In this document: positions 6,211 to 32,100 of the stretch, one piece after another | Layout of the letters: the number at the start of each line of letters is the position of its first letter | How positions within the stretch are numbered: the first letter of the stretch is position 1 | Origin: Thermoanaerobaculia bacterium | GTDB taxonomy: Bacteria; Acidobacteriota; Thermoanaerobaculia; Multivoradales; J023 | Assembly: GCA_028066595.1 (NCBI GenBank) | Contig: JALCBJ010000027.1 | Location: forward strand, 1-64,000 | Direction of reading: 5' to 3' | DNA: 64,000 bases | Program-made: the position numbers and the translations under genes | The notes under the pieces: generated by a model | What the model was told of the DNA's origin: nothing | Seen by the model: the letters and a program-made list of their open reading frames with translations, nothing else | Databases searched by the model: none

Positions 6211-6948
6211 ATGAGCCCTCGGCCTTGGCTCGCCCGTCCAGTATCGCTTCAGAACAGCAGGTCGCTGCTGTTCTGTATCCCGCATGCGGGCGCGGGTAGT
6301 GTCTTTTTCCGCGGCTGGCGAACCGTGTTGGCACCCGAGATCTCGGTTTGGCCGGTCCTTCTTCCTGGCCGGGAGTCGAAGATCGGAGAGCCCCCTGCAA
6401 CGAGGGTGGTCGAGCTCGTCGAGCCTCTCCTGCAGGCGATCCTGGGGGAAATCGACCGGCCCTATGCTCTTTTCGGGCACAGCATGGGTTCGGTGATTGC
6501 CTACGAGCTGGCGCGCAGTCTGACGGCGGCGGGGCACCCTCCCCAGCGCCTGTTCGTTTCCGGGCGGCCGGCTCCCCAGCTGGGTGCCAGCCTCCGCGGT
6601 ACGGCGGCATTGAGCGACGACGAGTTCGTCGATCTGTTGCACGGGCTGAACGGAACACCCCGGGAGGTACTCGACAATCCCGAGCTACTGGAGATCTTCC
6701 TTCCTACACTCCGGGCTGACTTCGAGCTCAACGAGAGCTTCGAGCCGGCCCCTGGGCCGCGCTTGGCGTGTGGGGTCTCGGCTTTCGTGGGCCTCGACGA
6801 TCCAGAGGTCAGCAGCGAGCATGTCGAGGCATGGCGTGAGGTGACGACGGGTCCGTTCGAGTTCCGGGCGTTTCCCGGCGATCACTTCTTCCATCAAGGG
6901 CCGCCGGGAGAGTTGGTGGAAGCGATTCGGCGTCCTCTTCGGTCCTGA
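6211..6948 (+). CDS. Type II (editing) thioesterase of the assembly line
   Basis: Stand-alone alpha/beta hydrolase of 245 residues, the normal size for GrsT/SrfA-D-type thioesterases that remove wrong or stalled acyl groups from carrier-protein arms. The opening CIPHAGAGS near 22-30 and the nucleophile elbow GHSMG (Ser91) are diagnostic. The acid is probably Asp196 or Asp197 in GLDDPEV, and the base is His225 in GDHFF. This gene is the first sign of the biosynthetic locus on the plus strand and should serve the large enzymes encoded opposite. Upstream of the ATG there is only a weak GGGA. A 129-bp gap follows before the precursor genes. Confidence 0.93.
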   Translation: MSPRPWLARPVSLQNSRSLLFCIPHAGAGSVFFRGWRTVLAPEISVWPVLLPGRESKIGEPPATRVVELVEPLLQAILGEIDRPYALFGHSMGSVIAYELARSLTAAGHPPQRLFVSGRPAPQLGASLRGTAALSDDEFVDLLHGLNGTPREVLDNPELLEIFLPTLRADFELNESFEPAPGPRLACGVSAFVGLDDPEVSSEHVEAWREVTTGPFEFRAFPGDHFFHQGPPGELVEAIRRPLRS

Positions 6949-7077: not shown

Positions 7078-7887
7078 ATGTCTATGGTCACTGCGGAAGC
7101 GCTTCCTTCGGCGACGGCTTTCCCTGCCTGGCTTGCCAGAGTCGCGGATCTGACCCGCGAATCCTGGGACAGGTTGATCGACAATCGGTTGAGGCTGATT
7201 CGAATACCGGGTTTCGCCTCCGACACCGAATGTGAGGCTCTGGTTCGGGAGGCGGAGCAGATCGGCTTCGAGCTGTACCGTGAGGTGAGCCCACCGATCG
7301 CGCGGATCGGCGTGACGCTCTTCGAGCACGACGGGATCGGCCATGAGGACTATTTCGTGTCGGCTCAGAAGGCTCGCGAGATCCAGCGCAGGATCTTCGC
7401 CCGATCGTTCGATCCGATCGAACGCCTCATCTCCATGATCCAGTCCAGAACCGGGTATCCGACGGGAGTCGCCTTGGATTCTCAGCACGGTCCGTATTTC
7501 GCTGGAACCGTCCGGCGGATCGAAAGCGGCACCCGCCTGCACATCGACTACGCTCCTGCGGAGCACCCGAGTTGGGAGGTCGCACAGGTGTGCGCGCAAC
7601 TGGCCTGGAACGTCTATCTCGAGCTACCTGAAAGCGGCGGAAACACCCATATCTACGAGCGCCAATGGGTGCCTGCGGACGATGGGCACAAGGAGACAGA
7701 TTCCTATGGCTACGATTCAGCGGTCGTGGCCGGCTCCGAGTGTGTGACCTTCAAGCCGACGCAGGGTGATCTCTATCTCTTCAATAGCAGGAACTACCAT
7801 CTCGTCGACGCAAGTGTCGGTCACCGTACGACGGTGAATTCGGCGGTAGGCCAGACCCGCGACAACAAGGTGGTGCTCTGGTCGTGA
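7078..7887 (+). CDS. 2-oxoglutarate/Fe(II)-dependent oxygenase, probable amino-acid hydroxylase
   Basis: Non-heme iron oxygenase of 269 residues. The iron ligands are readable: His155 and Asp157 in RLHIDYAP and the distal His241 in NYHLVDA. Arg250, nine residues later, is placed to bind 2-oxoglutarate. An HxD rather than HxG/A motif points to hydroxylation rather than halogenation. The overall look is closer to BesD-like enzymes that act on free amino acids than to the phytanoyl-CoA type. It starts a three-gene run with a zinc alcohol dehydrogenase and a ProC homologue, the same reaction order as leucine to 4-methylproline, where the first step is leucine 5-hydroxylation. That substrate is inferred from context only. 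It could instead hydroxylate another residue of the peptide. Confidence 0.85.
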   Translation: MSMVTAEALPSATAFPAWLARVADLTRESWDRLIDNRLRLIRIPGFASDTECEALVREAEQIGFELYREVSPPIARIGVTLFEHDGIGHEDYFVSAQKAREIQRRIFARSFDPIERLISMIQSRTGYPTGVALDSQHGPYFAGTVRRIESGTRLHIDYAPAEHPSWEVAQVCAQLAWNVYLELPESGGNTHIYERQWVPADDGHKETDSYGYDSAVVAGSECVTFKPTQGDLYLFNSRNYHLVDASVGHRTTVNSAVGQTRDNKVVLWS

Positions 7888-7951
7888 GCACGGGAGGGAG
7901 GCGGACCCGGCGATGTTCCGACTCCCCACTGTGGTAGGCGGCTGATCTCAG

Positions 7952-9073
7952 ATGGTCCGCGCGGCGGTGATGCCCGCACCCGGGGAACCGATCCAGGTTC
8001 GTGACTTCGAGACACCCGAGCTCGAACCCGGCGGCGCCCTACTCGAGACCTACTATTCCGAGGTCTGTGGCACAGACGTCCATCTGCACGAGGGCAGGTT
8101 GGCGGGTGTGCCGTACCCCATCGTGCCCGGGCATCTCTCGGTGGGAAGAATCGTCGAGTCCAACGGTCAGCTGACCGACGTCGAAGGCCGGACCATCGCG
8201 GTGGGTACAGACGTCACATTCCTGGACGTTCACGAGACCTGCAATCGTTGCTGGCATTGCCTGGTAGCCAAAGCCACGACGAGGTGCCCGTCCCGACGTG
8301 TCTACGGGGTGACCTACTCGGCCGAGGATGGGCTGCTCGGTGGCTGGGCCGAGCAGATCTACCTGAAGCCCGGCGTTCAGATCGTTCCCCTGCCCGAGGG
8401 AGTGACGCCGCGACTCGCCATCGCGGGAGGCTGCGCGCTTCCGACGGCGATGCATGCGATCGAACGAGCCGAGATCCGGTTGGGCGATTCGGTTTTGGTT
8501 CAAGGCGCTGGCCCCGTCGGGTTGACGGTGGCGGCGCTAGCTCTACTCTCCGGGGCCGGCAGAGTCTGGGTGATCGACCGGCACCAAAGCCGACTCGAGA
8601 CCGCGGAGACTCTCGGTATCGACGAGGCCATCGCGATCGACGACCACCAACCGGCGAACCATGTGGAGCGCTTGCTCGAGCTGAGCGCCGGACGCGGCGC
8701 GGACATCACGATCGAGGCCACGGGTTCGCCAGCCGCAATACCCGAAGGGATCGCCATGACCCGGGACGGTGGTCGGTACGCGATCGTCGGGCACTACACC
8801 GACGCCGGCGAGATCTCGCTCAACCCGCATCTGGACATCAACCGCAAGCATCTGGAGATACGGGGCGTCTGGGGATCGGAGCTGCGCCATCTGTACCGAG
8901 GTATCGGTGTCCTGGCTCGCCACGGTGCGACCTTGGGCGGCGTCGGAGGCTGGGAGCAGCTGATCTCGCGGACCTATAGCCTGTACCAGACGGAGCAGGC
9001 CCTGGACGACGTCCGCCATGGCCGCGTGGTCAAGGCGGTGATCGATCCGAAAATCAGGGATCCTTCCACGTGA
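7952..9073 (+). CDS. Zinc-dependent medium-chain alcohol dehydrogenase (NosE/GriF-like role)
   Basis: MDR-family dehydrogenase of 373 residues. The catalytic zinc site has Cys39 and His61. The structural zinc lobe has Cys97, Cys100, Cys103 and Cys112. The Rossmann dinucleotide motif is GAGPVG, followed by an acidic-then-arginine stretch VIDRHQSR that suggests NAD(H). The residue after the catalytic histidine is unusual: GHL instead of the near-universal GHE. Placed between the oxygenase and the ProC homologue, the likely job is oxidation of 5-hydroxyleucine to the semialdehyde, which cyclises spontaneously. Its stop overlaps the next start as GTGA, so the two genes are coupled. Confidence 0.88.
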   Translation: MVRAAVMPAPGEPIQVRDFETPELEPGGALLETYYSEVCGTDVHLHEGRLAGVPYPIVPGHLSVGRIVESNGQLTDVEGRTIAVGTDVTFLDVHETCNRCWHCLVAKATTRCPSRRVYGVTYSAEDGLLGGWAEQIYLKPGVQIVPLPEGVTPRLAIAGGCALPTAMHAIERAEIRLGDSVLVQGAGPVGLTVAALALLSGAGRVWVIDRHQSRLETAETLGIDEAIAIDDHQPANHVERLLELSAGRGADITIEATGSPAAIPEGIAMTRDGGRYAIVGHYTDAGEISLNPHLDINRKHLEIRGVWGSELRHLYRGIGVLARHGATLGGVGGWEQLISRTYSLYQTEQALDDVRHGRVVKAVIDPKIRDPST

Positions 9074-9888
9074 GACTCGGTTTCATTGGCGGTGGCCGCA
9101 TGTGCGAGGCGATACTTCGCGGCCTGCTCGACCGCGGAGTGGTTCGGGGCCGGGACGTGGTCGTGGCCGAGATCTCCTCCGAGCGGCGACAGGAGCTGGC
9201 GGAGACCTTCGGTGTAGCGACGACGATTCATGGTGTCGATGCCGTTGCCGAGGCGGAGGTCGTGATCCTGGCCGTCAAGCCACAGCACCTGTCGACCGTG
9301 CTCGAGGATCTGCGTCAGAAAACACCGTCGGACACCCTAGTGCTGAGCATCGTCGCCGGCGCGCGATTGTCCATACTCGTAGATGGCCTCGATCATCGAG
9401 TCGTGGTGCGCGCCATGCCTAATACCCCGGCTCAGGTGGGGAAGGCGACCACCGTGTGGACCGCCACGTCGGAAACCGATGACGAGCAGCGCGAGTTGGC
9501 GCGGACGATATTGGGCGGCGTCGGATTCGAGCTCGAAGTCGCGACGGAAGCGCTGGTCGAAGCGGCCACCGGGATCTCGGCCCCCGCACCTGCGTTCGTC
9601 TATCTGCTGGTCGAGGCGATGTCGGACGCCGCCGTCGCGCTCGGATTCAACGCCGAGCAAGCCCAACAACTGGTCCTCGAGAGCTTTCGTGGCAGCCTGG
9701 AGCTCCAGCGGGTGACCGGCGAGCATCCGGCGATCCTCCGTTCCCACGTCACCAGCCCGGGTGGGGCGACCGCCGCCGGCCTCTATGCCCTGGAGCGAGG
9801 GCGCGTGCGCACGGCGATCCACGACGCCGTTCGTGCAGTCTTCGACCGGGCGCAGATCCTCGGCGCATCGGTCGACGACAGACCATGA
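9070..9888 (+). CDS. proC: Pyrroline-5-carboxylate reductase homologue, probable methyl-pyrroline reductase (NosF/GriH-like)
   Basis: ProC-family imine reductase of 272 residues with a GTG start. The N-terminal nucleotide motif GFIGGGRM, the AVKPQ strand near 68, the MPNTPAQVG segment near 116 and VTSPGGAT near 227 are all family hallmarks. The conserved S-G-S-G-P-A-Y stretch of housekeeping ProC reads SAPAPAF here (170-176), which points to a paralogue with altered substrate fit. With the upstream oxygenase and dehydrogenase, the likely reaction is reduction of 3-methyl-pyrroline-5-carboxylate to 4-methylproline. The A domain encoded at 17047-21831 has a proline-type pocket that could use it. 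Ordinary proline synthesis is the alternative. The following 200 bp, convergent with the acyl-CoA dehydrogenase gene, shows no clear terminator. Confidence 0.9.
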   Translation: MRLGFIGGGRMCEAILRGLLDRGVVRGRDVVVAEISSERRQELAETFGVATTIHGVDAVAEAEVVILAVKPQHLSTVLEDLRQKTPSDTLVLSIVAGARLSILVDGLDHRVVVRAMPNTPAQVGKATTVWTATSETDDEQRELARTILGGVGFELEVATEALVEAATGISAPAPAFVYLLVEAMSDAAVALGFNAEQAQQLVLESFRGSLELQRVTGEHPAILRSHVTSPGGATAAGLYALERGRVRTAIHDAVRAVFDRAQILGASVDDRP

Positions 9889-10088: not shown

Positions 10089-11261
10089 TTAGTAGCCGAG
10101 ATTTGCCGCCGCGAAATCACGCATCACTTCTTCCGCGCCGCCGCCGATGGCGTTGACTCGGACCTCGCGATAGATGCGTTCCACTCGCGTGCCGCGCACG
10201 TAACCGGCACCGCCGAAGATCTGGAGCGCCTCACGGGCGCAGCGCTCCATCGTCAGAGACGCTTGGTTCTTGAGCAGACAGATATCGGCTGTGGGTTGCT
10301 CGCCCCGGTCGGCCAGCCAGACCAACTGCTCGAGATATGCCTGGGTAGCGCGGATGGCCATGGCCATGTCGGTCAGCTTGTGGCGGATGACCTGTTTGGC
10401 GATGAGCGGCTCGCCGAAGACCTGCCGCTGGCGGGCGTAGGCCAGAGCATCTTCGTAGCAAACTCGCGACAGACTGTTGCAACTGGCGATCATGAACAAC
10501 CGTTCGAGGGCGAAGTTCTGCATCAGCAAGCCGAAGCCCTGATTCTCGGCGCCGATGAGATTCTCGAGCGGTACACGACAGTCGCTGAACTCGAGAACGG
10601 CGATGTCCGCGCAGGCCCAGCCCATCGTCTTCAACCGCCTTCGTTGGAACCCGGGGGCATCGCGTTCGATCAGCAGTAGCGAGAGCCCACCAGGACCGCT
10701 GCCGCCGGTGCGTACCGCGACCGTGAAATAGTCGGCGCGTGTGCCGGACGTGATGTAGGACTTGGCTCCGTTGACCACGTAGCATCGTCCTTCGCGCACC
10801 GCGGTAGAACGCAGGCCGGCCACATCGGATCCGCCGGAAGGCTCCGTGACCGCAAGTGCGCAGATCTTCTCGCCGGCGAGGACACCGGGCAGGACCCTGG
10901 CCTTGAGTGCTTCCGATCCGGCAGCGACGACGGGGGGCATCGCGACGCCGTGGTTCATCAACGCAGAGGTCAGTCCTCCGGCGCCGGCTCGGGACATTTC
11001 CTCGGCGGCGATGATGCGATGGAAGTGGTCCTTCTCGAGGCCGCCGTAGCGGGCGGGGAATCCGAGTCCGAGGATGCCCGCGACGGCGGCTTTCCTGTAG
11101 AGCTCCGTCGGGAACGATCCGGCCTCCTCCCAACCGTCGATATGAGGCTCGATCTCCTCTCGTACGAATCGCGATACTGCGTGCCGGAACTCGAGGTGCT
11201 CCGCGGAGTAGTAAGGGCTCTTTGGGTTCTGTGAGGTCGCTGCGTCCTGGATGCCGGACAT
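10089..11261 (-). CDS. Acyl-CoA dehydrogenase family flavoprotein, last gene of the operon
   Basis: FAD enzyme of 390 residues that would desaturate an acyl or aminoacyl thioester. The FAD signature AVTEPSGGSDVAG is at about 137-149 and the C-terminal signature QIFGGAGYVRGTRVERIY is present. The usual catalytic Glu in the C-terminal Y-E-G motif is replaced by glycine (AIGGGAEE). A Glu at 253 in FALERLFMI matches the alternative position used by isovaleryl-CoA dehydrogenases, so activity is plausible. The ATG lies 4 nt after the stop of the thioesterase-bearing NRPS gene, placing it in the same transcript. Candidate substrates are the FAAL-loaded acyl chain or a carrier-bound residue such as prolyl; the sequence does not decide. 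Confidence 0.9.
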   Translation of the reverse strand: MSGIQDAATSQNPKSPYYSAEHLEFRHAVSRFVREEIEPHIDGWEEAGSFPTELYRKAAVAGILGLGFPARYGGLEKDHFHRIIAAEEMSRAGAGGLTSALMNHGVAMPPVVAAGSEALKARVLPGVLAGEKICALAVTEPSGGSDVAGLRSTAVREGRCYVVNGAKSYITSGTRADYFTVAVRTGGSGPGGLSLLLIERDAPGFQRRRLKTMGWACADIAVLEFSDCRVPLENLIGAENQGFGLLMQNFALERLFMIASCNSLSRVCYEDALAYARQRQVFGEPLIAKQVIRHKLTDMAMAIRATQAYLEQLVWLADRGEQPTADICLLKNQASLTMERCAREALQIFGGAGYVRGTRVERIYREVRVNAIGGGAEEVMRDFAAANLGY

Positions 11262-11265
11262 CGGG

Positions 11266-14200
11266 TCAGGACGCTTCGCTGACTGCGGCGTCGAGATCGG
11301 CTTCTAGCGATGCGGCCAGCTGATCGACGTGGGGAACCTGCGTCATCGTCTGGTGATTACCACCGACGAAGCGAGTCACGAGGCCGCGGCACAGCTCGGC
11401 CCAACCGAGATCTTCGAGGTCGGTGATCGTCGTAGCGAAATCGCGCTCTTCCTCGGCGCGGTATAGATGGATCCGGCCGCCGTAAGAAGGAGGCCGGTAT
11501 CGCTCCACGGCGGCGAAGTTGTTTTTCGCAACGCGCAACATCCTCCGCGCCTTGTCGACGTCGAAGCTCGGCGGAATGACGTCTTTCTTCTTCGCTTCCT
11601 CGATCACATAGTGCAACCGTTCCTCTTCGCCGAGCTGGCGTAACTCCCTGGCCCCGACTTCGAGCACACCGCCGACCAGAGCGACCAGAACATCGGAGTC
11701 GTCTTGCCGGTGCGATGGTGAGTCGACGACCCACGGCGAATAGGAGTCGAGCATGCCGAGAAAGGAGATCTGTTCGCCGGCAGCCTCGAGCTTGCGCGCC
11801 ATCTCGAACGCGGCGACGCCGCCGAAGGACCAGCCGAGAAGCGCGTAGGGACCACGCGGTCGTCGGGCACGAATCGCCTCGATGTATAGATCGGCCATCG
11901 CCTCGAGGCTCTCTTGTGGCTCCTGGCCGTGCGCCAAGCCGCGAGCTTCGAGCGCGAAGATCGGACGATCCCCGTTCAGGTGCGAGGCCAGCTGCCAGTA
12001 GCAGACCACATTGCCACCGCCCGGGTGAACGCAGTACAGAGGTTCCGCCGTGCCGCGGCCGCGGATCGTGACCATCGGCGACCAGTGCCGGGTCCCACGC
12101 TTTGCTTGGATCAGCAGGGCCAGCTGCTCGATCGTCGTCGCTTGAAAGAGCTCCGTGAGTGGTAGATCCACTCCGAGGACTTCTTTGACAATGGCCATCA
12201 TTCGGACCGCGGCCAGCGACGTGCCACCGAGGTCGAAGAAGCTGTCGTGCACGCTGATCTGTGACCTCTCGAGGACCTCTTCCCAGATGCCCGCCAAGAT
12301 CACTTCGATATTCGACCGCGGTGGCACGGTGGTCGCCGCACGCTCGGACCAGTCTGGTGCTGGCAGGGCTTCTCGGTCGATCTTGCCGCTCGGGGTCTTG
12401 GGCAAGTGTTCGAGAGCTACGAAGGCGGCGGGGACCATGTACTGGGGAAGCCGTAGCGCGAGAGCCTCACGCAACGAAGCGGTGGCCACCTCCTTCCCCG
12501 GTTCGGGAACGAAATAGCCGACCAAGGCCGGCTCACCCGAGGGTAGATCGCGCGGAGCCACCACCGCCTGCACCACGCCGGATTGGTCGACCAGCGCCGT
12601 CTCGATCTCGGCGGGCTCGATGCGGTAACCGCGGATTTTCACCTGGTGGTCGATCCGACCGAGAAAATCGAGCTCGCCATCGGCACGCAGCCGCGCCAGA
12701 TCGCCGGTTCGGTAGAGTCTGCCACCGAGCTCCCCACTGTGCGGATCTGGAACGAACGCTTCCGCGGTCGTGGCCGGTCGGCCGACGTAGCCGCGAGCGA
12801 GGCAGATGCCGCCCACGTAGATCTCACCCGGCGCACCGGGGGCGACCAGCGAGGTTTGCGGATCGCACAGGTAGACGCGTACGTTCTCCATCGGCCGGCC
12901 GATCGACAAGCGCGCGTCGTGGTCTGGCTGGTAGGCGATCGTCGCACAGACCGTGGTCTCGGTGGGACCGTAGGCGTCGAGGAACATACGGTTTCGGCTC
13001 CACTCGGCCGCCAGCCGAGGCGCGCACACTTCACCCGCGACAATGAGAACCGCGAGATCGGGAACGTCAGCGGCGCGCAGCAACTCGAGGGACGAAGGCG
13101 GAATGGTCGCGTGAGTGATCCGTCGCTCCCGTAGCGTCGTGGTCAATTTCGCGCCGGGTAGCAATTGATCGCGAGATCCCAGGTGAAGCGCCGCGCCCAC
13201 GACCAGGGCCATCACGATCTCGGAAACGGCGGCGTCGAAGCTCATGGAAGCAAACTGTAGAACCCGGCTATCGGACTCGACCTGGAAGGCGCGGCTCTGC
13301 GCTTCGGCCAGGTTGACCAAACCCCCGTGGGTCAGCAGGGCGCCTTTGGGTCGGCCGGTAGTGCCGGACGTGTAGATGACGTAGGCCGCTTGGCCGTGTT
13401 TGAGCTCGCCCGGTGGCCTTCGTGGCCTGTGGCGCGCCACCAGGGCCCACTCTCGATCTAGGTCGAGGGTCTCGACGCCGGAGGAGGCGAAGGCCGGACT
13501 GGTGTGGCTATCTGTCAACACTAGGCGGAGGCCCGAGTCCGCGACCATGAAGGCGAGGCGGTGCCAGGGATACTCGGGGTCCAGCGGTAGAAACGCTCCA
13601 CCCGCCTTGAGCACTCCGAGGATGGCAAGCACGGCCGAGGTGGCACCGCGAGTCATCGAGATGCCGACCAGGCTCTCCGGCCCGACCCCGCGGCGGATCA
13701 GCTCATGCGCCAGCTGGTTGGCACGGCGATCGAGCTCGCTGTAGCTGATGAGCTCGTCCTCCGTGACGACCGCCGGAGCGTCGGGGCATTGTTCGACCCG
13801 GGCCTCGAAACGGGCCGGAAAGCTCTCCTGGGGAGGCTCGGTCACGCTGTCCGATGCCCAGCTCGACAGCCGCTGGCGCGCTCGCGCGCCAATCAGATCC
13901 AGGCGACGGAGCTCAGCGGTCGGCGCGGTCAGGCCGGCATTCAAGACCTCCTGCCAGCTGGCGACCAGGTCTCCGATGGTCGACTCGCGATAGAGGCCGC
14001 GGTCGAAGCGAGCTCGGCCATCGATGTGATCGGTTTCTTCCTCGAGGTCGATCTCGATCGCTGCGCCGACTTCGGGTAGCTCCGAGTGAAGGCCCTCGAG
14101 ACGCACGGTCAGCTCGAAGAACGGCCGATCTCCGAGCCGGGCTCCGAGGGCGTCCAGCACCTGCTCGTAGGGGATCAGCTGGTGAGAGTAGGCGTCGAGC

Positions 14201-14610
14201 AGCGTGGAGCGCATCGCGAGCAAGAGCTGTTGAAACGAGGCGTGCGGTTCGATGTTGGAGCAGATCGCCAGGGCGTTGACGTGGTCACCGACCAGGCGTG
14301 CGGGACTTCCGACGCATACCTGCGAAGTCCGCAGGTGAGGCTGCAAGCTGACGGATAGGGCGGTCATCAAGGTGGTGTAGCTCAGAAAGCTGCCGCCGTT
14401 GGTCAGCCTCTGTAGGCGTCGGTAGAGATCTCCATCGATTTGCCATCGCAGCTCCCCTCGGCGCTCGCCATGAGCTTCGGAGGGAGCGAAGTCACAGATC
14501 AGCGAAGATCGGGACTGACGGCCGGAAAGGCGCTCTCGCCAGTACTCGCGTTCTTGGTACAGACCACGGTCGAAGGTGGGTGGTCGCCGCGTGGCTCCTT
14601 GGCTGATCAT
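11266..14610 (-). CDS. Terminal NRPS module: half-C-A(Tyr)-T-TE
   Basis: Last assembly-line protein (1114 residues), adding the final residue and releasing the product. Residues 15-240 are only the C-terminal lobe of a condensation domain, with no HHxxxDG. The A domain (about 265-755) has YTSGTTGRPKG at 413-423, and its pocket residues read D-A-S-T-I-A-A-V-C-K, very close to the published tyrosine code. The carrier serine is Ser798 in LGGTSLAA. The thioesterase (about 855-1114) has GWSFGG with nucleophile Ser928 and a late histidine in GGNHQTM. The ATG at 14610 overlaps the radical SAM stop as ATGA; a longer open frame upstream is only an overlap artefact. The missing N-lobe suggests that the C domain ending the protein encoded at 17047-21831 makes this peptide bond. 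Release by hydrolysis or macrocyclisation cannot be told. Confidence 0.93.
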   Translation of the reverse strand: MISQGATRRPPTFDRGLYQEREYWRERLSGRQSRSSLICDFAPSEAHGERRGELRWQIDGDLYRRLQRLTNGGSFLSYTTLMTALSVSLQPHLRTSQVCVGSPARLVGDHVNALAICSNIEPHASFQQLLLAMRSTLLDAYSHQLIPYEQVLDALGARLGDRPFFELTVRLEGLHSELPEVGAAIEIDLEEETDHIDGRARFDRGLYRESTIGDLVASWQEVLNAGLTAPTAELRRLDLIGARARQRLSSWASDSVTEPPQESFPARFEARVEQCPDAPAVVTEDELISYSELDRRANQLAHELIRRGVGPESLVGISMTRGATSAVLAILGVLKAGGAFLPLDPEYPWHRLAFMVADSGLRLVLTDSHTSPAFASSGVETLDLDREWALVARHRPRRPPGELKHGQAAYVIYTSGTTGRPKGALLTHGGLVNLAEAQSRAFQVESDSRVLQFASMSFDAAVSEIVMALVVGAALHLGSRDQLLPGAKLTTTLRERRITHATIPPSSLELLRAADVPDLAVLIVAGEVCAPRLAAEWSRNRMFLDAYGPTETTVCATIAYQPDHDARLSIGRPMENVRVYLCDPQTSLVAPGAPGEIYVGGICLARGYVGRPATTAEAFVPDPHSGELGGRLYRTGDLARLRADGELDFLGRIDHQVKIRGYRIEPAEIETALVDQSGVVQAVVAPRDLPSGEPALVGYFVPEPGKEVATASLREALALRLPQYMVPAAFVALEHLPKTPSGKIDREALPAPDWSERAATTVPPRSNIEVILAGIWEEVLERSQISVHDSFFDLGGTSLAAVRMMAIVKEVLGVDLPLTELFQATTIEQLALLIQAKRGTRHWSPMVTIRGRGTAEPLYCVHPGGGNVVCYWQLASHLNGDRPIFALEARGLAHGQEPQESLEAMADLYIEAIRARRPRGPYALLGWSFGGVAAFEMARKLEAAGEQISFLGMLDSYSPWVVDSPSHRQDDSDVLVALVGGVLEVGARELRQLGEEERLHYVIEEAKKKDVIPPSFDVDKARRMLRVAKNNFAAVERYRPPSYGGRIHLYRAEEERDFATTITDLEDLGWAELCRGLVTRFVGGNHQTMTQVPHVDQLAASLEADLDAAVSEAS

Positions 14611-17027
14611 GGGTTGGAGGTACCCGTCGAGGCCAGGTCGAAGCTGAACGCCGCCTCGGCGTCGAGGGCGACCGCGGCCTCCACCGCGAGCTGTTGGTCG
14701 AGGCTCGCTCGCGACACCGGCTCGGTGCCGTCGGCCCAGTGGCTCAAAATTCGGCAGGTCTCCCGGCCGAGCTCGGTCATGTCGGCAAGATGTCGCTGCG
14801 CGGGATCGAAGCCGATCGTCAGCTCGGGTCGCTCGGTAGAGCCACCGATCGTCAACTCGATGCTGATCTGCCGGGCAATCCCGGGTGCGTCGTGGTCCAG
14901 ACGCTCGCGACTCGGTGACGACTCCCCGTCGCGATGGACGCAGACCATGGTGTCGAAACGCGGCGGGTCGTCGCCGCGCCACGCGAGCCAGGCTGGATCC
15001 TGCAGACAGGCGAGAGCAAAAGGTCGGTGCTCCTCGAAGGACGCCAGCTCCTCGTGCATCGAGTGGAGGACCCGATCCGGATCGAGCCGCGAGACCTCGA
15101 GCTGAAGTGGCGCCAGCTCGCCGACCTCGCCACTGGCAGAGATCGGTGACAGCAAGGTCAGCTCGGAGCGACCCTGCCACCGGGCCAAGGCGGCGGCGAA
15201 CGCGGCGACGATCACGTCCGGCTGTTTCCACCTCGTGTCGAGGTCACCAGCTGCCGGCCACTGGACTTGCTCACTCGACCAGCCCGGTTCACCGATGGCG
15301 TCGTTCCGGGTTGTGGTGTTCTTTGCCGGCCTGGAGCCGTACGTGGACCAAAATTCTCGGGCGGCGCTATAGCGACCTGGCCACCAGAGATCGGAAGTCG
15401 TGAGGCCCGGACGGTGCTCGTGGTCGGTGCCGAACTGCGAGCACCTCTCGAGATCGCCCAGCAGGGCAGGCCGTTCGGAATGGCGCCGGTGAAACAAGAG
15501 ATTCTCCCGCACCACGGTGTTGAACGAGGCGACGAAGTCCATCACTTGCTGCCAGCTCATTCCCTGCCGTTGCAAGTAGAAGGTGCTCCATTGCTCGAAG
15601 CCCCATTGTGGTAGCCAGCACGACCCCTCCACGGACAGGAAGAGGTCGTCGATCACCGCGCACGCCGTGGCGGCATCCATGGTCGCGTGGGACCAGTTGA
15701 AGGCCGAGCCCTCGATGTCGTAGCGCTCCCGCTGTTGCCAGATCGGCGTCATCGGATCGCAGTACCAAAGCTGCGCTCGAAAGAAGTCGGGCTGGCCGGT
15801 CTCGAGGAGGTCTCGGGTCTCCTCGACCGTTTCCATGGTCTCGCCGGGAAAGCCGATGATGAGGCTGGCGTAGGTCGAGATCCCGGCCTCCCTGAGCCGC
15901 GGAAGAGCCGCGAGATAGTGCTGGCGGCGTGCGGTTTTGTTCATCCGCTTCAGCATCGTGTCGCTACCGGACTCGATCCCGAGGAACACACCCTCGCAGC
16001 CGGCTTGGCCCATGAGATCGATGATCTCGGCACTACCGTGGTCACTTCGATAGAAGCTATTCCATCGAAAGCCGTAGTCGTTGCGGATCATCATCTCGAG
16101 GATGGCGCGAAAGCGTTTCGGCGGCACGTTGAAGGTGTCGTCGAGGAACGTGAGCGTGTTGACGGTTCCGAGATCTCGGATCGCGTCGAGCTCGCGTTCC
16201 ACCGCCTCGACCGACTCGAAGACATATTTCCCGGCCCGTTGCGGAAAGCCGCAGAATGAGCAGGAGAAGGGGCAGGACTTGGCAGTGCGCAACGAGATCA
16301 TCTGACCCACGTCGGCGGGCGGGAAGAGCGACAGGTCCGGCTGGTTGTCCTCCAGGGAATTGACCTCGGGCTCGCATCCGGTGCGCGTGAACCGACCATC
16401 GATTCGGTAGGCGATATTCGGTACGGAGGAGAGATCTTGGCCGCCGCGCAAGGCTTTCAACAGCCGCGCGAGGGTCGCCTCGCCTTCCTGATTGATCACG
16501 TAGTAGTCGCCGCCGAGGTAACCGAAAAGCCGGGCCAACGTCGCTTCGTCATTGGTTCCGGACTGGTTGGCGATGAAAGGGCCACCGATGATCACGGGCA
16601 CCGACGGGTCGTGCTGACGGACGAAGGAAACGATCTCCGAGATCGGTGCCGGGGAGACATAGAAGGTCGTGAGGATCGCCACCGTACGGACCGAGCCGGT
16701 CGCCAGCTTGTCGGCCAGGCGATCCTTTTCGAGCTGGAAGGCATTGACGTAGTCGAAGCTCAGACCCTGGCGAGACAAGTAGGTGCCGAGATAGGCGATT
16801 CCCGGTGACAGGAAGTCTGTATTGTGAAACTGCTTCTCTCCGGACGCCCGGTGGTAGTGACTGAGCGCGTCGAGCGCGCGCATCGGCCTGCCGTCGACCT
16901 CGACGAAGGCCAGGCGTAGATCCCGATAGGCTCCGGCATCCCCAGATCGGACCATCTCTACATAGCTTTGGAAGTCCGAGTCGTTGTGGCCGATCAGCAG
17001 GCAATCTACGTTCGTTGCTTCGCTCAC
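14607..17027 (-). CDS. B12-binding radical SAM (PhpK-like) fused to a C-terminal half-condensation domain
   Basis: Protein of 806 residues. Residues about 1-200 form a cobalamin-binding domain, with the opening VDCLLIGHNDSDFQSYVEM typical of PhpK-like enzymes from biosynthetic clusters. The radical SAM cluster motif is Cys252-x3-Cys256-x2-Cys259 (CPFSCSFCGF). This family methylates unactivated carbon or phosphorus centres, so a C-methylation of the peptide or a precursor is likely. About 250 further residues, beyond the usual ~550, match the C-terminal lobe of an NRPS condensation domain (pattern VIVAAFAAALARWQGRSELT and a late RFDTMVCVHR strand) without any active-site histidines. The GTG start at 17027 has an excellent AAGGAG. 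It sits between two NRPS genes, and the tail may dock it to the assembly line. The methylated position is unknown. Confidence 0.87.
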   Translation of the reverse strand: MSEATNVDCLLIGHNDSDFQSYVEMVRSGDAGAYRDLRLAFVEVDGRPMRALDALSHYHRASGEKQFHNTDFLSPGIAYLGTYLSRQGLSFDYVNAFQLEKDRLADKLATGSVRTVAILTTFYVSPAPISEIVSFVRQHDPSVPVIIGGPFIANQSGTNDEATLARLFGYLGGDYYVINQEGEATLARLLKALRGGQDLSSVPNIAYRIDGRFTRTGCEPEVNSLEDNQPDLSLFPPADVGQMISLRTAKSCPFSCSFCGFPQRAGKYVFESVEAVERELDAIRDLGTVNTLTFLDDTFNVPPKRFRAILEMMIRNDYGFRWNSFYRSDHGSAEIIDLMGQAGCEGVFLGIESGSDTMLKRMNKTARRQHYLAALPRLREAGISTYASLIIGFPGETMETVEETRDLLETGQPDFFRAQLWYCDPMTPIWQQRERYDIEGSAFNWSHATMDAATACAVIDDLFLSVEGSCWLPQWGFEQWSTFYLQRQGMSWQQVMDFVASFNTVVRENLLFHRRHSERPALLGDLERCSQFGTDHEHRPGLTTSDLWWPGRYSAAREFWSTYGSRPAKNTTTRNDAIGEPGWSSEQVQWPAAGDLDTRWKQPDVIVAAFAAALARWQGRSELTLLSPISASGEVGELAPLQLEVSRLDPDRVLHSMHEELASFEEHRPFALACLQDPAWLAWRGDDPPRFDTMVCVHRDGESSPSRERLDHDAPGIARQISIELTIGGSTERPELTIGFDPAQRHLADMTELGRETCRILSHWADGTEPVSRASLDQQLAVEAAVALDAEAAFSFDLASTGTSNP

Positions 17028-17035
17028 GGACTTTT

Positions 17036-17041
17036 CTCCTT
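17036..17041 (-). promoter_or_regulatory. Strong ribosome-binding site that fixes the radical SAM start
   Basis: AAGGAG on the minus strand lies 8 nt before the GTG at 17027. It supports that start over an upstream in-frame codon inside the preceding NRPS gene and is the best Shine-Dalgarno in the operon. Confidence 0.75.
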
Positions 17042-17046
17042 GCAGG

Positions 17047-20000
17047 TCAGAACCGGAATGCCTCGACCAAGTCGCCGGCCAGAGTCTCCGGAGGTGGCGC
17101 CGGAGCCTGGGGCAGACCGAAGTCGACATCGAGCAACCGTTGCTCCGGCCGGTCGGCGAGGACCTCCAGTAGCAGCAGGAAGCGGTCTCTCATCTCGATG
17201 ATCGTCGAGGGATCGAAGAGATCGCTGTCATAGGCCAGCGATCCCGCGATGCCTCGGTCGTGTTCTTCGAGTGCCATCAGCAGGTCGTAGCCGAGATGGC
17301 CGGCATAGGTCGAATATGGCTCGAGATCGAGATCGCCCAGACGCAACCGGGACCGGGTCTTGCTCTGCAGGGTCATTGCGACCTGTGCGATCGGATGGCG
17401 GTGCGGTTGGCGCTCGGGGAGGAGGTTGCCGACCACCAGATCGAACGGCAGATCCTGATGGGAATATGCCTCGATGGCAGTCTTTCGCGTCCTGCCGAGC
17501 AACTCGTCGAAGGACGGATCTCCAGTCAGATCCAGGCGCAGTGCCACCACGTTGGCGAAGGTGCCGATCAGAGGCTCGACCTGAGGGTGACTTCGATTGG
17601 CCACCGGGCACGCGATGATCTGATCTTCGTTGCCGGTGTAGCGGTAGAGAAGACAAGAGAATGCTGCCAGGAGAGCCATGTAGAGACTGGCACCGTGCTC
17701 CCGGGTACGCTCCTGGAGCCGGGTGGTCAGGTCGGTGTCGAGCTGCAGCTCGATGCAGTCGCTGCGCAGACTCGGCACGGTCGGACGAGGTCGATCCAGG
17801 GGCAGAGGCGCCAGCGGCGGAGCTCCGGTGAGTCGGTGGCACCAATACTCGAGCTGACCCTCGAGAACCCCGCCGACTTGTTGGCGCTGCCAGTGCGAGT
17901 AGTCGGCATATTGCACCTCCAGCTCGCTCAGGGGCGACGGCAGGGCGGTGACGAAGGCGCCATAGAGCGCGGAGAGCTCGGTGGTGATCACATCCACGGA
18001 CCAGCCGTCCGAGATGATGTGGTGCATCACCACGATCAGCACGTGATCGCGCGCCGAGCATCGGACCAGGCAGAGCCTCAGCAAGGGTCCCGTCGCGAGA
18101 TCGAAGGGCTTTCGGATCTCTTCGTCGATGAGCCGCTCGATCCAGCGTGTCTGGAGCCCAGCACCGGATGCCGACAGGTCGATGAGCCGAAGCGCGGGAC
18201 GGCTGGCGGTAGCGACGAGCTGTACCGGTGTCCCACGTTCATCGTGGAAGGTCGTGCGGAGCGACTCATGCCGGCGGACGATCTCCACCAGCGATTGGTG
18301 AAGCGACTCGAGGTGTAGCCTGCCGTGGAGCCGGAGAGCTGCGGGCATACTGTGGTTCGAGGTTCCGGCCGACATCCGTTCCAAAGTCCACATCCGCTCC
18401 TGGGCAAACGAGAGGCGCCGTCGGTCACCATCCGACGCCGTGGTGATCGGCGTCACAGCGGCTCTCTCGTTCTGTCGGAGCTGCCGGCTGAGGGCGGCGA
18501 TGGTCGGACATTCGAAGAGATCGCGCAGCGACACTTCGGCACCGGTTCGACCGCGGATCCTGCTCAGAAGCCGGGCGGCTAGCAGCGAATGACCGCCCAG
18601 GTCGAAGAAGTCGTCGTCGATGCCGAGCGTCGGCACATCGAGGATCTCGCGCCAGAGATCTACGAGGAGCGATTCCAGTGGATCTCGTGGCGCTCGGGAG
18701 CGATCCTGCGGACTCCGCGGGCCGGGATCCGGCAGCGCGCGACGGTTGATCTTGCCGCTCGGAGTCTTGGGAAACTCCTCGAGCAGGACGAAGGCTTTGG
18801 GCAGCATGTACTCCGGAAGCAGCCCACGCAGGTGACGAGCCAGCTCCTCCTCGTCCGGTCGCGAGCTCTTCGACACGACGTAGGCGACAAGGTACGGCCC
18901 GGTGGTCGAATCGCGCTTGGGCACCACTACCGCCTGCGTGATCCCCGGGAAGTCCATGAGAGTGGCCTCGATCTCCCCGGGCTCGACCCGGTAGCCACGG
19001 ATCTTGACCTGATGATCGATGCGACCGAGGAACTGGAGCGAACCGTCGTCCGACCTCCGGCACAGATCGCCGGAGCGGTAGAGCCGGTCGCCGGGGCGTG
19101 CGCCGAACGGATCCGGCAAGAAACGAGCCGCCGTCTGTGCCGGCCGGTGGACGTAGCCCCGACCCAGGATGTCGCCGCCGAGCACGAGCTCGCCGTCGAG
19201 GCCTGGGGACGACAATCTCAGAAAGCCACTGGTGACATGGGCGCGTGCGCCTTCGATCGGTCGGCCGATCGAGGGCAAGTGGGGCCAATCGGCGGGTTCT
19301 CCGCGTAGCGGATGGAACGTAGCGAGGTGCGTCTCGGAGGGGCCGTAGTGATTGTCCAGCGTCGTGACGTTTCGGCTCAGGACCGCTCGAATCGCCGGCG
19401 TCATCTGCAACTGTTCGCCGGCTGTGTAAAGGTGCCGAAGAGTCGGTGGCATCCCGATCGCGGCCGCTTCCTCTGCCAGCTGCTGGAGCGCCACGAACGG
19501 CAGAAACATGCGTTCCACCGCGGTCTCGTGCAGGAGTCTCAGCAGCTCGACCGGATCTCGCCGGATCTCGTCGGAGATCAGATGCAGCGCTCCGCCCTCG
19601 ACCCAGGTGGAGAAAGTCTCCTGCATGAAGACGTCGAAGCTCATCGGTGCGAACTGGAGCGTGCCGCGTGGTGGTGGATCGGTCTGCCCAGCCTGCCAAA
19701 AGGCGAGGTTGCGGAGCGTCCGATCGGGGATCGCGACGCCCTTCGGCTCACCGGTGGAGCCCGAGGTATAGACGATGTACGCGAGCTGGTCCGGAAGCGC
19801 CGGACGATGGTGGGTGGAGACCGCCGGACGCCCGGCGGCGTACGGCCGGCCTCGCTCGAGCCAGAGGAGCGCGGTCGCCGAGTCCTGCGCGGCTTCACAC
19901 TCGCGGCTGGCAAGAATCAACGTCAGACCGCAGTCGCGCTCGAGGAAAGCGCGCCGCTCGGCGGGGTAGGCAGGGTCGATGGGCACCAGCACGCCGCCGG

Positions 20001-21831
20001 CGAGGTGGATCGCGAGCACGGCGATCAGCGTTTCCGGAGCACGCACCGTGTAGACACCCACTGCCACCTCGGGCCCGACTCCGCGGTTCCGAAGCTCACG
20101 GGCCAGCGCCTGGGCCTCGACCACCATCGTACGGTAGGTGAGCGCACCTCCCCGCCATTCCAGTGCAACGGCATCCGGTTGTCGGCGGGCATGCTCGACG
20201 ATGCGATCGGCCACGGTCATTCGTCGTACGTCGCCGGCCGTCTCCGCGGCAGCTCGGGGACGGAGCTCCTGATTCCACACCGAAGCTTCGAGGCGGTGCT
20301 GCTGCTCTCCGACCAGCTCGAGATCGTCGATTCGCTGTTCGGGTTGCCGCGCGAGTGTCTCCACGACGTTCAGAAATCCGGCGGCCAGAGCTTCGATCGT
20401 GCTCGGCTCGAAGAGCCCGGCTTCGTATTCCAGATGTCCGCGGACACCTGCGGCGGTCTGTTCCAAGGACAGTGTGAGATCGAACTTCGCCTCACCGTTG
20501 ACGAGGGGCAAGGGCTCGAAGCTCAGCTCCGAGGTCGGCAATGCACGCTCGACCCCCAGGCGGTTCTGGAAGGCGAACATGACCTGGAAGAGTGGATTGC
20601 GGTCGAGGGAGCGCTCGGGTCGGACCGCTTCGATCACTCGTTCGAAGGGCACGTCTTGGTGATCTTGGGCCGCCACGACGGTCCGTCCGACGTGTCGCGT
20701 CAGACCGGCGAGAGTCGAGCCACCCTGAAGCTCCAAGCGGAGGGCGAGGGTGTTGGTGAAGAAACCGACGAGCGCCTCGGTTTCGCGGCGGTTGCGATTG
20801 GCGATCGGTGTGCCGATCACGAGGTCGTCCTGGCGGGACGACCGTGCGAGGAGCGCGACGAAGGCGGCGAGCAAGCCGCTGTACAGCGTCGTTCCCAAGG
20901 CGCGGCAGCGATCCTCGAGGTGCGTGACTTGCTGCGAATCGAGCTGGATCGAGCGATAGCCCGCGGCGGATCCCGCCTCGTGACGATGTTCGAGCCTCGG
21001 CAGATCCAGGGACTCGGGTGCGCCCTGCAGATGTTGACGCCAGAAGTCGAGCTGACGTTCGAAGCGCTTTGCTGTGCCGTCGCTTCGCTGCCAGCGGGCA
21101 AAGTCTGTGTACTGGATCGGTAGGGGTGGGGAGGCGGCCGGCCTACCTGTGGAGTAGGCGTCGAGCCCGTTCGTCATTTCGGTCTGCAACAAGCCGACGG
21201 ACCAGCCGTCGGCCACGATGTGGTGGAGGCAGAGGCCGAGGATCCGGTCGGTGGGGCCCAGGTCGATCAGGAACGATCGCAGCAATGGACCGTGCTCGAG
21301 GTCGAAGGCCCGCCGGGCGCCTTGGTCGAGAACCTGTTGGGCGACCTGCTCGCGCCGCTCGGCGGGGAGTCGGCTCAGGTCGATGCGCAGCATCGGCATC
21401 GACGCCGTGGCTCGCATCTGAGTCGGCGTCTCGTCGACTTCTCGGATCACAGTCCGCAGAACTTGGTGCCGCCGACGGATCTCTGCGAGCGACTGCTCGA
21501 GAGCCGAGGTGCCGAGCGGACCGCGAACACGATGCGCCGAGGGTACGTTGTAGACGGCACGGTCGCCGTCGAGACGACGGAGGAACCAGAGACGTTGCTG
21601 AGAGAACGAGAGCGGTGCCGGCGATCCATCCCTGCACGCGTGGATCGGCTCGTCGGAGGCTGACTTCGAGGCAAGTAGCTCGAGCATGGGAGCCTTGTGA
21701 CTCTTGAGCTCCGCCAGCAGATCGGCGGTCATCGCGCCCGGCGGGGCACTGAAACGGAGCGCTTCGCCGTCTGCCCAGAGGCGGACCTCTCTCGCGCGCA
21801 GGCGGCCGAGCAAGTCGCGGATCGCGCTCAC
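17047..21831 (-). CDS. NRPS: docking-C-A(Pro/methylproline)-T-C
   Basis: Protein of 1594 residues. Residues 1-55 are a TubC-type beta-hairpin docking domain. The first C domain (about 74-515) has an LCL-type opening LSFSQQRLWFL and HHIVADG at 203-209. The A domain (about 530-1035) has YTSGSTGEPKG, and its pocket reads D-V-Q-F-Y-A-H-L-A-K, which belongs to the proline group (DVQxxAHxx). The carrier serine in LGGHSLLAA is near 1081. A second LCL-type C domain (about 1137-1594, HHIISDG) ends the protein and should join the prolyl chain to the tyrosine on the last module. The pocket fits free proline or the 4-methylproline implied by the plus-strand genes. The GTG start overlaps the upstream stop (GTGA). 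The stop lies 19 nt before the radical SAM start. Confidence 0.93.
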   Translation of the reverse strand: MSAIRDLLGRLRAREVRLWADGEALRFSAPPGAMTADLLAELKSHKAPMLELLASKSASDEPIHACRDGSPAPLSFSQQRLWFLRRLDGDRAVYNVPSAHRVRGPLGTSALEQSLAEIRRRHQVLRTVIREVDETPTQMRATASMPMLRIDLSRLPAERREQVAQQVLDQGARRAFDLEHGPLLRSFLIDLGPTDRILGLCLHHIVADGWSVGLLQTEMTNGLDAYSTGRPAASPPLPIQYTDFARWQRSDGTAKRFERQLDFWRQHLQGAPESLDLPRLEHRHEAGSAAGYRSIQLDSQQVTHLEDRCRALGTTLYSGLLAAFVALLARSSRQDDLVIGTPIANRNRRETEALVGFFTNTLALRLELQGGSTLAGLTRHVGRTVVAAQDHQDVPFERVIEAVRPERSLDRNPLFQVMFAFQNRLGVERALPTSELSFEPLPLVNGEAKFDLTLSLEQTAAGVRGHLEYEAGLFEPSTIEALAAGFLNVVETLARQPEQRIDDLELVGEQQHRLEASVWNQELRPRAAAETAGDVRRMTVADRIVEHARRQPDAVALEWRGGALTYRTMVVEAQALARELRNRGVGPEVAVGVYTVRAPETLIAVLAIHLAGGVLVPIDPAYPAERRAFLERDCGLTLILASRECEAAQDSATALLWLERGRPYAAGRPAVSTHHRPALPDQLAYIVYTSGSTGEPKGVAIPDRTLRNLAFWQAGQTDPPPRGTLQFAPMSFDVFMQETFSTWVEGGALHLISDEIRRDPVELLRLLHETAVERMFLPFVALQQLAEEAAAIGMPPTLRHLYTAGEQLQMTPAIRAVLSRNVTTLDNHYGPSETHLATFHPLRGEPADWPHLPSIGRPIEGARAHVTSGFLRLSSPGLDGELVLGGDILGRGYVHRPAQTAARFLPDPFGARPGDRLYRSGDLCRRSDDGSLQFLGRIDHQVKIRGYRVEPGEIEATLMDFPGITQAVVVPKRDSTTGPYLVAYVVSKSSRPDEEELARHLRGLLPEYMLPKAFVLLEEFPKTPSGKINRRALPDPGPRSPQDRSRAPRDPLESLLVDLWREILDVPTLGIDDDFFDLGGHSLLAARLLSRIRGRTGAEVSLRDLFECPTIAALSRQLRQNERAAVTPITTASDGDRRRLSFAQERMWTLERMSAGTSNHSMPAALRLHGRLHLESLHQSLVEIVRRHESLRTTFHDERGTPVQLVATASRPALRLIDLSASGAGLQTRWIERLIDEEIRKPFDLATGPLLRLCLVRCSARDHVLIVVMHHIISDGWSVDVITTELSALYGAFVTALPSPLSELEVQYADYSHWQRQQVGGVLEGQLEYWCHRLTGAPPLAPLPLDRPRPTVPSLRSDCIELQLDTDLTTRLQERTREHGASLYMALLAAFSCLLYRYTGNEDQIIACPVANRSHPQVEPLIGTFANVVALRLDLTGDPSFDELLGRTRKTAIEAYSHQDLPFDLVVGNLLPERQPHRHPIAQVAMTLQSKTRSRLRLGDLDLEPYSTYAGHLGYDLLMALEEHDRGIAGSLAYDSDLFDPSTIIEMRDRFLLLLEVLADRPEQRLLDVDFGLPQAPAPPPETLAGDLVEAFRF

Positions 21832-29189: not shown

Positions 29190-32100
29190 GAAGTGATGCC
29201 CTCGAGCTCTTCCAGGCTGATCCCTGAGTACGTCAGATCGGCGGGCGTCACTTCGGGGTGCAAACGGCCACTGCAATGATCGATGACTTCGCCGATCGAA
29301 TCGCGCAGCGCGACGAGCAGCGCCTCCGTGCGGTGGCGGGAGAATCGGTGGCGGCTGTAGCCGATCTCCAGGAAGAGCCGTCCGCGGAGCACCGCGGCTC
29401 CGATATCCAGCTCGGTGGGCCGGGGGCTGTTGCCGTCGACGGAATCGCCGACGGGCTCCGACACCATGATCAGATCGCCGACGGTCATGGAAGCGTCGAA
29501 ATCGCCCAGATAGTTGAAGCTGGTGAGCGGTGCTGCGGGCTGGCTGCTTTCAGCGTTCAACAAGCCGTAGCCGAGACCGCGGTCGGGCACCGAGCGCAGT
29601 GCCTCCTTGATCGACTTGATCTGAAAGCCGAGGTCCTGGCCGGCGGGCAGCTCGAGTTGAAAAGGAAACCTCGTGGTGAACCAGCCGACGGTGCGCTCGA
29701 CCGGCAGGCCACTCGGCTGCTCGCCGAGGTCCTCACGTCCGTGTCGTTCGAGCACGATGACGCTGGACTTGGCGTCGGCCCAGATCTCCAGCGCGCGCGC
29801 CAGAGCTGTGAGAAGCAGATCCTCGGCGGTGGTCGAGTACGCGGCATTCGCCTTGACTCGCAGCAGATCGGTGCGCTCCTTCGATAGCTCGGTGCTGATC
29901 TGCTCCAGATCACGATAGCGGTTCGAGCCCTGCGGGTCGTCAGGACTGATGGCGACCGAATGTCCCTCGACCGCTTCCCAGTACTCCGCCTGCCGGCGGA
30001 TCGATGGGGAAGATGCGAGCTCGCCGAGCCTGGCTGCCCAGCTGCCGTAGGTTGCCGTCGACGGCGGCAAGGCGATCGGCCTCCCGTCCACTGCCTGCCG
30101 ATAGGCGGCGACGAAGTCATCCAGCAGGATGCGCCACGACGTACCGTCGATCACCAGGTGGTGGCCGACGAACAGGAGCCGATCACCGCGCGGATGGCGG
30201 AAGAGCGCAGCCTTGAACAACGGACCTTCCTCGAGGCGCAAGCTACCTTGGGTGCGGTGGGCGTGGCGTTCGAGCGCCCGCAGGGGATCTTGGTCCGGCT
30301 CGAGCTCCACCTCCTCGACGACGCACTCGAGCTCGACTTCCACCCGGCCGATCCAGCCGTCTCGAGTCTTGTGGAAGGTCGTCCGAAGAGCCGGATGTCG
30401 GGCGAACAGTCCGTTGATCGCCAGCTGGCAGGCGTTGGCCTCGAAGCCCACGCGATGTACAAAGAGCAAGGCTTGGTTGAAATGCTGTGGGCAGTGCTCG
30501 AAGTGGCGGAAGAACCAGCGCTGGATGGGTGCCAGGGGCTGCGGACCCTCGAGCGGCACGTCGGTGCGCTGCCGCGCCAGCCTCTTCAGTCGCGGTGTGA
30601 GCTCGGCAACGGTGGGATGAAGGAATAGATCCTGGACCCCGAGGCCGAGGTCGTGCTCGAGCAGACGCGACACCACCTGGATCGCCTTGATCGAGTCTCC
30701 ACCGAGGGCAAAGTAGTTGTCGTGGATCCCGACACGATCTCTACCGAGAACCGCGCCCCAAGCTTCGGCCACGGTTTGCTCGACAGCATTCCGCGGCGCC
30801 GCGAATTCGCTGCCGAGATCCAGATCCTCGACCTCGAGGGCTGCGAGGGCGCGCCTGTCGACCTTGCCGGACGAAGTCAGAGCGAGGGCCTGATGGCGAA
30901 GGAACCTGGAGGGAACCATGTACTCGGGAAGACACTCCAGCAAGCTGCCGCGCAGCAGCTCGACACTCAGCGAGCGATCGCCAGCGAAGTGCGCGATCAG
31001 CGAGCCTCCACCATCTCCTTCGGGATCGAACCGCACCGCCGCCTGTCGTACACCTTCGATCTCGAGGAGCGCGGCCTCGATCTCGCCAGGCTCGATGCGA
31101 AAGCCCCGGACCTTGATCTGATCGTCGATGCGGCCGCAGTAGATGAGATCTCCGTCGGTGAGCTTGGCGCGGTCACCGGAGTGGTAGAGGCGTTCGGAGT
31201 CGGCGAACGGATGAGGGCCGAATCGCTGAGCGGTGAGGCCAGGCTGACCGGTGTAACCGCGGGCGACGCCGGCCCCGGCGACGCAGATCTCCGCCGGTGT
31301 CCCTTGCGGCACGAGCTCGCCTCGGCGATCGAGTAGCAGGGTCGCCAGGGTCGGGATCGGCCGTCCGACGTTGGATAGATTGGCCGCGATCTCAGCGCCG
31401 CCGATTTCTTTGAACGTGACATGCACGGTCGTCTCCGTGATGCCATACATGTTGATCAGACGTGTGGACGGATAGCGCCGGGCAAACGACGCGAGGATCA
31501 CCGGCTTGAGCGCTTCTCCTCCGAAGATGAGGTATCGAAGCTCCAGCAGAGAGGGCAGGGTGTGCTCGCGGTCCGCCAGACCCGTGAACGCCGACGGTGT
31601 CTGGTTCAAGATCGTGACGCGTTCGAAGGTCAAGACGGCGAGGAGGGAATCGACGTCCCGAACGATCGGTCGTGGCACGATGACCAGTCGCGCTCCCGTG
31701 AGCAATGCGCCGTAGATCTCCCAGACCGAGAAGTCGAAGCTCGGCGAATGCACCAGCGCCCATCGGTCGTGCGTCGTGAAGTCGAAGAGGGGGCGATCGG
31801 TGGTGAGCAGACGAAGCACGTGTCGGTGCTCGACGACGACACCCTTGGGTCGGCCGGTGGAACCGGATGTGAAGATTACGTAGGCGGCCTGTCCCGGTGC
31901 CGGTCCGCTCCTGAGGTTGCCCGTGTTGGCGTCGGATGACTGGGTCGAGTGTGCTCCGAGCGTCATCGTTTTGACCGCCAACCCGTCCAAAACCGCCTTC
32001 ACGCCGGGCTCGATGAGCACGATCCCGGCGCCCGAGGCCTCGATCAGATACTCGACCCGTTCCTGCGGATACTCGGGATCGATGGGTACGTAGCAGCCGC

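Follow-up and report, generated by a model that had tools for sequence, protein, structure and literature searches.

A predicted LdoA/NosE/NosF-type 4-methylproline cassette facing a PKS/NRPS operon in a Thermoanaerobaculia bacterium

Organization of the cassette and the facing operon

The window, which is the whole 64,000-nucleotide stretch of Thermoanaerobaculia DNA analysed here (contig JALCBJ010000027.1, positions 1 to 64,000), carries three consecutive genes on the plus strand between positions 7078 and 9888. They encode a predicted LdoA-type Fe(II)/2OG oxygenase (7078..7887, 269 aa; PF22814/WelO5 type, 50 bits), a NosE-type zinc alcohol dehydrogenase (7952..9073, 373 aa; PF08240/PF00107), and a NosF-type pyrroline-5-carboxylate reductase homologue (9070..9888, 272 aa), which scored 248 bits against the ProC model TIGR00112 (cut-off 196.75 bits). 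The dehydrogenase and ProC open reading frames overlap by 4 bp. The first-pass annotation had described an oxygenase, a zinc dehydrogenase and a divergent ProC homologue lying in reaction order, and open reading frames of the matching families were found at exactly these positions and in that order. A type II thioesterase gene (6211..6948, plus strand; PF00975, 163 bits) lies directly 5' of the cassette. The gri sub-operon likewise includes a type II thioesterase, GriG (PMC5676206).

The cassette is faced by a minus-strand PKS/NRPS operon that spans from the right end of the window to an acyl-CoA dehydrogenase gene, its last gene (10089..11261; PF00441/02770/02771). Homologues of this acyl-CoA dehydrogenase with 39% identity were observed in two myxobacterial cassette regions (L114 18230-19351; L120 888-2009). 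The first PKS/NRPS gene (53925-64000, minus strand) extends beyond the right end of the window. Two AMP-binding stretches were noted for it (53925-64000, minus strand; L113 2-823, minus strand), which suggest a fatty-acid-loading start. An NRPS module at 29186-35152 has an A-domain code resembling DFWNIGMVHK and is presumably threonine-like by its motifs. Closer to the cassette, all on the minus strand, are the genes for an NRPS protein composed of docking, C, A, PCP and C domains (17047..21831), which is the predicted 4-methylproline module, for a PhpK-family radical SAM protein of the B12 type (14607..17129; PhpK P-methyltransferase model TIGR04479, 699 bits, cut-off 600), and for a terminal NRPS protein with the domains C (partial), A, PCP and TE (11266..14610). 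The code of the terminal A domain is DASTIAAVCK, which we take to be Tyr-like. At the start of the terminal protein there is just the C-terminal portion of a condensation domain (profile positions 193-455), even though a nearly complete one closes the NRPS protein before it.

Features of the oxygenase

In the alignment, the iron triad (H155/D157/H241) and the 2OG-binding R250 of the oxygenase were intact and invariant across its relatives. The AlphaFold model (mean pLDDT 90) had WelO5 as its best structural match (Z 25.6 over 246 residues, 22% identity), and identity to the WelO5 halogenase family was 21-22%. In WelO5 the iron-binding Asp is replaced by Gly, which makes that enzyme a halogenase. 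A WelO5-type halogenase was ruled out for the window protein, in which D157 is present and invariant. Because the H155-x-D157 motif is retained, the oxygenase was taken to be a hydroxylase; its ligand set is as expected for this activity, and it is predicted to be a leucine 5-hydroxylase.

A GriE-type oxygenase was also rejected. The true GriE orthologue of the Streptomyces sp. NBC_01369 plasmid (L137) scored 345 bits to GriE (5NCH), whereas the window oxygenase found WelO5 and no GriE among solved structures at E values up to 10. A profile built from 25 oxygenase sequences, searched against solved structures, had the same outcome and did not recover GriE at E values up to 0.1.

Oxygenases that adjoin a NosE-type dehydrogenase, including that of the window, were united in one clade of the oxygenase tree (95/99), which also holds a Chromobacterium protein encoded without a neighbouring dehydrogenase or ProC. 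LdoA, characterised in N. punctiforme, is presumably represented in this tree by the oxygenase adjacent to nosE, an assignment by gene position (PMC7551626). The Nostocales loci encode, downstream of nosF, another oxygenase of the WelO5 type (L012 13097-13900, L013 15071-15877, L016 11054-11794, L017 11108-11848 and L036 10886-11626), which falls in a different clade of its own.

Phylogeny of the dehydrogenase and the ProC homologue

The dehydrogenase is 60-61% identical to the Nostocales NosE proteins and 60-63% identical to its myxobacterial homologues, compared with 36% identity to the GriE-linked dehydrogenase. It fell within a NosE clade (100/99) that includes one solo homologue; the cassette members alone formed a group with support of 87/80, so that separation of the cassette dehydrogenases from the solo protein has moderate support. 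The solo NosE-like dehydrogenase (L112 1854-3050, 54% identity) belongs to another genome of the window's order, and its gene has no oxygenase or ProC gene nearby. GriF was represented in this tree by the GriE-linked homologue from the Streptomyces plasmid (L137), not by GriF of griselimycin itself, and this homologue was placed outside the NosE clade among camphor-type dehydrogenases. On that plasmid (L137 1076-9046), the gene for the GriE orthologue overlaps the zinc dehydrogenase gene, and both lie downstream of genes for a stand-alone A domain, a carrier protein and two acyl-CoA dehydrogenases. The product of this locus is perhaps a methylproline-derived pyrrole.

In the ProC tree, the window protein (9070-9888), NosF, the myxobacterial homologues and the ProC of a Pseudomonas plasmid formed one clade (100/99), within which the plasmid protein has a long branch and an unsure exact placement. 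None of the 31 housekeeping ProC proteins in the tree fell within this clade, and the housekeeping ProC of the window's own genome was among those outside. That protein is encoded by a second ProC gene (C164:9332-10114; 277 bits against TIGR00112) and was placed with proteins of its own order, away from cyanobacteria. The phylogenetic checks suggested with the first-pass annotation thus placed the dehydrogenase with NosE and the ProC homologue with NosF, and because of these placements and the second ProC copy the call of a 4-methylproline pathway stands. Its attribution to both known forms of the path fared differently: the NosE/NosF part was borne out by the clades of all three proteins, and the GriE/GriF/GriH part was not, given that GriE was not matched and the GriF-type dehydrogenase lay outside.

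Distribution of the three-gene order

Relatives were collected with a GTDB genome scan using the oxygenase alignment, followed by tblastn with the proteins of the window. Five Nostocales loci, in Rhizonema, Komarekiella, Nostoc (two) and Brasilonema, have the oxygenase-dehydrogenase-ProC order beside NRPS genes, with identities to the window of 38-40% for the oxygenase, 60-61% for the dehydrogenase and 44-45% for ProC. The measured Nostocales open reading frames were 1107 bp for the dehydrogenase and 795 bp, with the stop codon, for the oxygenase. In Nostoc edaphicum, a 1107-bp nosE homologue and a 798-bp ORF upstream of it have been assigned to 4-methylproline biosynthesis (PMC7551626). We regard the cassettes of the five loci as the ldoA-nosE-nosF / ncpCDE genes.

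Four complete cassettes beside NRPS genes (L108-L111) were found among the 195 Myxococcota genomes searched, a set from which the window genome is absent; identities to the window were 50-52%, 60-62% and 50-53% for the oxygenase, dehydrogenase and ProC, respectively. DVQ-type modules lay beside the cassette in all four of these loci and in the two Nostocales loci that were read. A full cassette in the same order was also found on Pseudomonas aeruginosa plasmid pPH2PALO502 (CP075790.1; 47% oxygenase, 56% dehydrogenase and 37% ProC identity). The stretch of this plasmid that was read carries no NRPS gene, and the cassette (L005 19009-24834) is flanked by genes for an EamA-type transporter, a PhyH-family oxygenase and an FtrA-type regulator. 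The plasmid cassette possibly directs the synthesis and export of free 4-methylproline or a derivative. Recurrence of the three-gene order in Nostocales, in Myxococcota and on a P. aeruginosa plasmid indicated that the arrangement is not due to chance.

Among 396 sampled genomes of the window's own phylum, the oxygenase was found only in that of the window, which leaves no close relative for comparison. A 16S rRNA gene was looked for in the window's assembly and none was present. The 293 genomes of Marinobacter's order yielded no relative beyond the starting genome, and the 86 pattern matches in viral contigs included no relatives.

Two partial arrangements were also observed. In Chromobacterium alticapitis (L011 10001-15670), an oxygenase relative with 47% identity is encoded beside a PF10014 2OG dioxygenase and an L-amino-acid ligase, together with a second ATP-grasp-like protein, an FAD/NAD(P) protein and a transporter. 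Neither the dehydrogenase nor ProC was found at this locus, which looks like a hydroxylated-dipeptide locus. In Corallococcus sicarius (L010 9815-12857), an oxygenase (51%) and a NosE-type dehydrogenase (63%) occur without ProC, for which the product of a convergent gene, bearing a C-terminal domain of the reductive-aminase type (PF21761), could stand in.

The predicted 4-methylproline module and the radical SAM gene

The A-domain motifs of the NRPS protein encoded at 17047-21831, FDVFMQE..RMFLPF..LYTAGE..NHYGPSETHLAT, were read as DVQFYAHLAK. No other A domain read in the window has a DVQ code, and the gene for this one lies about 7 kb from the cassette. The modular A domains for proline and 4-methylproline have the consensus VQ(Y/F)IAHVV (PMC3874040), from which the FYAHLA code of the window departs at three positions; the DVQ A domains of cassette clusters elsewhere read, for example, DVQFIAQVAK. 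In the A-domain tree the window domain grouped (99/97) with DVQ domains from the cassette clusters of Nostocales and myxobacteria. The proline-type pocket (DVQ..AH) recognized in the first-pass annotation was upheld by both the code and the tree.

The PhpK-family radical SAM gene (14607-17129) sits between the predicted 4-methylproline module and the terminal module. Its stop codon overlaps the start ATG of the terminal NRPS gene at 14610 in an ATGA-type junction. The C-terminal region of the radical SAM protein, of about 300 residues, is without a Pfam match. No PEP mutase scored over the cut-off in the window's genome, which makes P-methylation by this protein unlikely; for the same reason, the atom that it would methylate is probably carbon. 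C-methylation is known for related class B enzymes (PMC7277169). The radical SAM gene may be a more unusual feature of the locus than the cassette itself.

Proposed pathway and alternative explanations

The gene content and order, the active-site residues, the trees, the second ProC copy and the recurrence of the cassette beside DVQ modules were all observed directly. From these we infer each catalytic step of the window proteins, the stereochemistry and the loading of the product. In the proposed pathway, the oxygenase (7078-7887) would hydroxylate free L-leucine at C5, and the zinc dehydrogenase (7952-9073) would convert the resulting 5-hydroxyleucine to 4-methylglutamate-5-semialdehyde. Spontaneous cyclisation of the semialdehyde would give methyl-pyrroline-5-carboxylate, which the ProC paralogue (9070-9888) would reduce to 4-methylproline, with (2S,4S) as its most likely configuration. 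This residue is predicted to be loaded by the one A domain of DVQ type in the facing line (17047-21831); the last module (11266-14610) would then add an aromatic residue and the TE would release the product. The reactions of LdoA, NosE and NosF have been described previously (PMC5676206, PMC10817943, PMC7551626). We are confident that 7078-9888 is an LdoA/NosE/NosF-type 4-methylproline cassette that feeds the facing PKS/NRPS line.

An improbable alternative is that the oxygenase acts on isoleucine, at its terminal carbon, or on a homologated amino acid, and that the product is 3-methylproline or another 4-alkylproline. The oxygenase does score with the family model of HilA, an isoleucine dioxygenase, at 34.5 bits, far under the cut-off of 500. 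In the analogous mycoplanecin pathway the enzymes take homo-amino acids (PMC10817943), and an identity of only about 40% to the Nostocales oxygenase leaves room for a shift of substrate. All three window proteins nevertheless fall within the clades of the Nostocales genes that convert leucine to 4-methylproline, which argues for leucine as the substrate.

We consider it quite improbable that 4-methylproline is made at this locus but used elsewhere or exported, with the facing A domain loading plain proline. The NRPS-free plasmid cassette with its EamA exporter is a precedent for such use, and A-domain codes are unable to separate proline from 4-methylproline (PMC5676206). The consistent pairing of cassettes with DVQ modules in the Nostocales loci read and in the Myxococcota, and the presence of exactly one such module in the window, so near the cassette, argue instead that 4-methylproline is incorporated by the facing line. 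Although 9070-9888 passes the TIGR00112 model, housekeeping proline biosynthesis beside unrelated oxidoreductases that are adjacent by chance was already refuted by the NosF-clade placement and the better-scoring second ProC copy, and with the three-gene order recurring in distant phyla this explanation has a negligible probability.

With its cassette, the window provides a further case of a known pathway, well supported and from an unexpected bacterial group. The 4-methylproline route has been described in the literature from cyanobacteria, actinomycetes and fungi; the window adds a cyanobacterial-type cassette from a rare bacterium of a different phylum, and related cassettes are present in myxobacteria and on a Pseudomonas plasmid. 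4-Methylproline stabilises bioactive peptides such as the griselimycins, spumigins and nostocyclopeptides, and its genes serve as bait in the search for peptides of this kind. The locus yields a concrete prediction, namely a (2S,4S)-4-methylproline residue before the terminal aromatic residue of the PKS/NRPS product; the position of this residue before a Tyr-like one would follow from gene order and collinearity and from the code of the terminal A domain. A more speculative combined reading, which we regard as doubtful, is that a mobile, self-contained cassette shared by several phyla either feeds NRPSs or, on the plasmid, serves to make and export free 4-methylproline or a hydroxylated derivative, and that the product of the window is in addition C-methylated by the PhpK-family radical SAM protein.

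Comparison with known systems

The window oxygenase shares its fold and sequence family with WelO5 (PF22814) but keeps the Asp that is Gly in WelO5. The P. aeruginosa plasmid cassette has the same gene order as the window but, unlike it, is NRPS-free on the stretch read.

The griselimycin genes griE-griF-griG-griH and the mycoplanecin genes mypE/mypF share with the window the logic of 5-hydroxylation, dehydrogenation and imine reduction, and a type II thioesterase in the sub-operon is common to gri and the window. The enzymes differ, however: GriE is an oxygenase of the PhyH family and GriH a reductase of the F420 type, whereas the window encodes an oxygenase with the WelO5 fold and, as its reductase, a true homologue of ProC, and the dehydrogenase linked to the GriE orthologue on the Streptomyces plasmid lies outside the clade of the window's dehydrogenase. 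The gri and myp product is a (2S,4R)-4-alkylproline. LdoA forms (2S,4S)-5-hydroxyleucine and GriE the (2S,4R) isomer (PMC5676206). Since the cassette is of nos type and not of gri type, the product is predicted by analogy to be probably (2S,4S)-4-methylproline rather than the (2S,4R) isomer.

The closest counterparts are the ldoA-nosE-nosF / ncpCDE genes of nostopeptolide and nostocyclopeptide, which encode the same families in the same order and adjoin an NRPS that contains a DVQ A domain; each of the three window proteins shares a clade with its Nostocales counterpart, and the product of those genes is (2S,4S)-4-methylproline, as in the spumigins. The window differs from these loci in that its proteins are 38-61% identical to theirs, its cassette is preceded by a type II thioesterase gene and lacks the adjacent second oxygenase (OXY2), and its assembly line is a different PKS/NRPS that includes a PhpK-family radical SAM gene. 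The host also differs; it is not myxobacterial, and its housekeeping ProC is placed apart from those of cyanobacteria.
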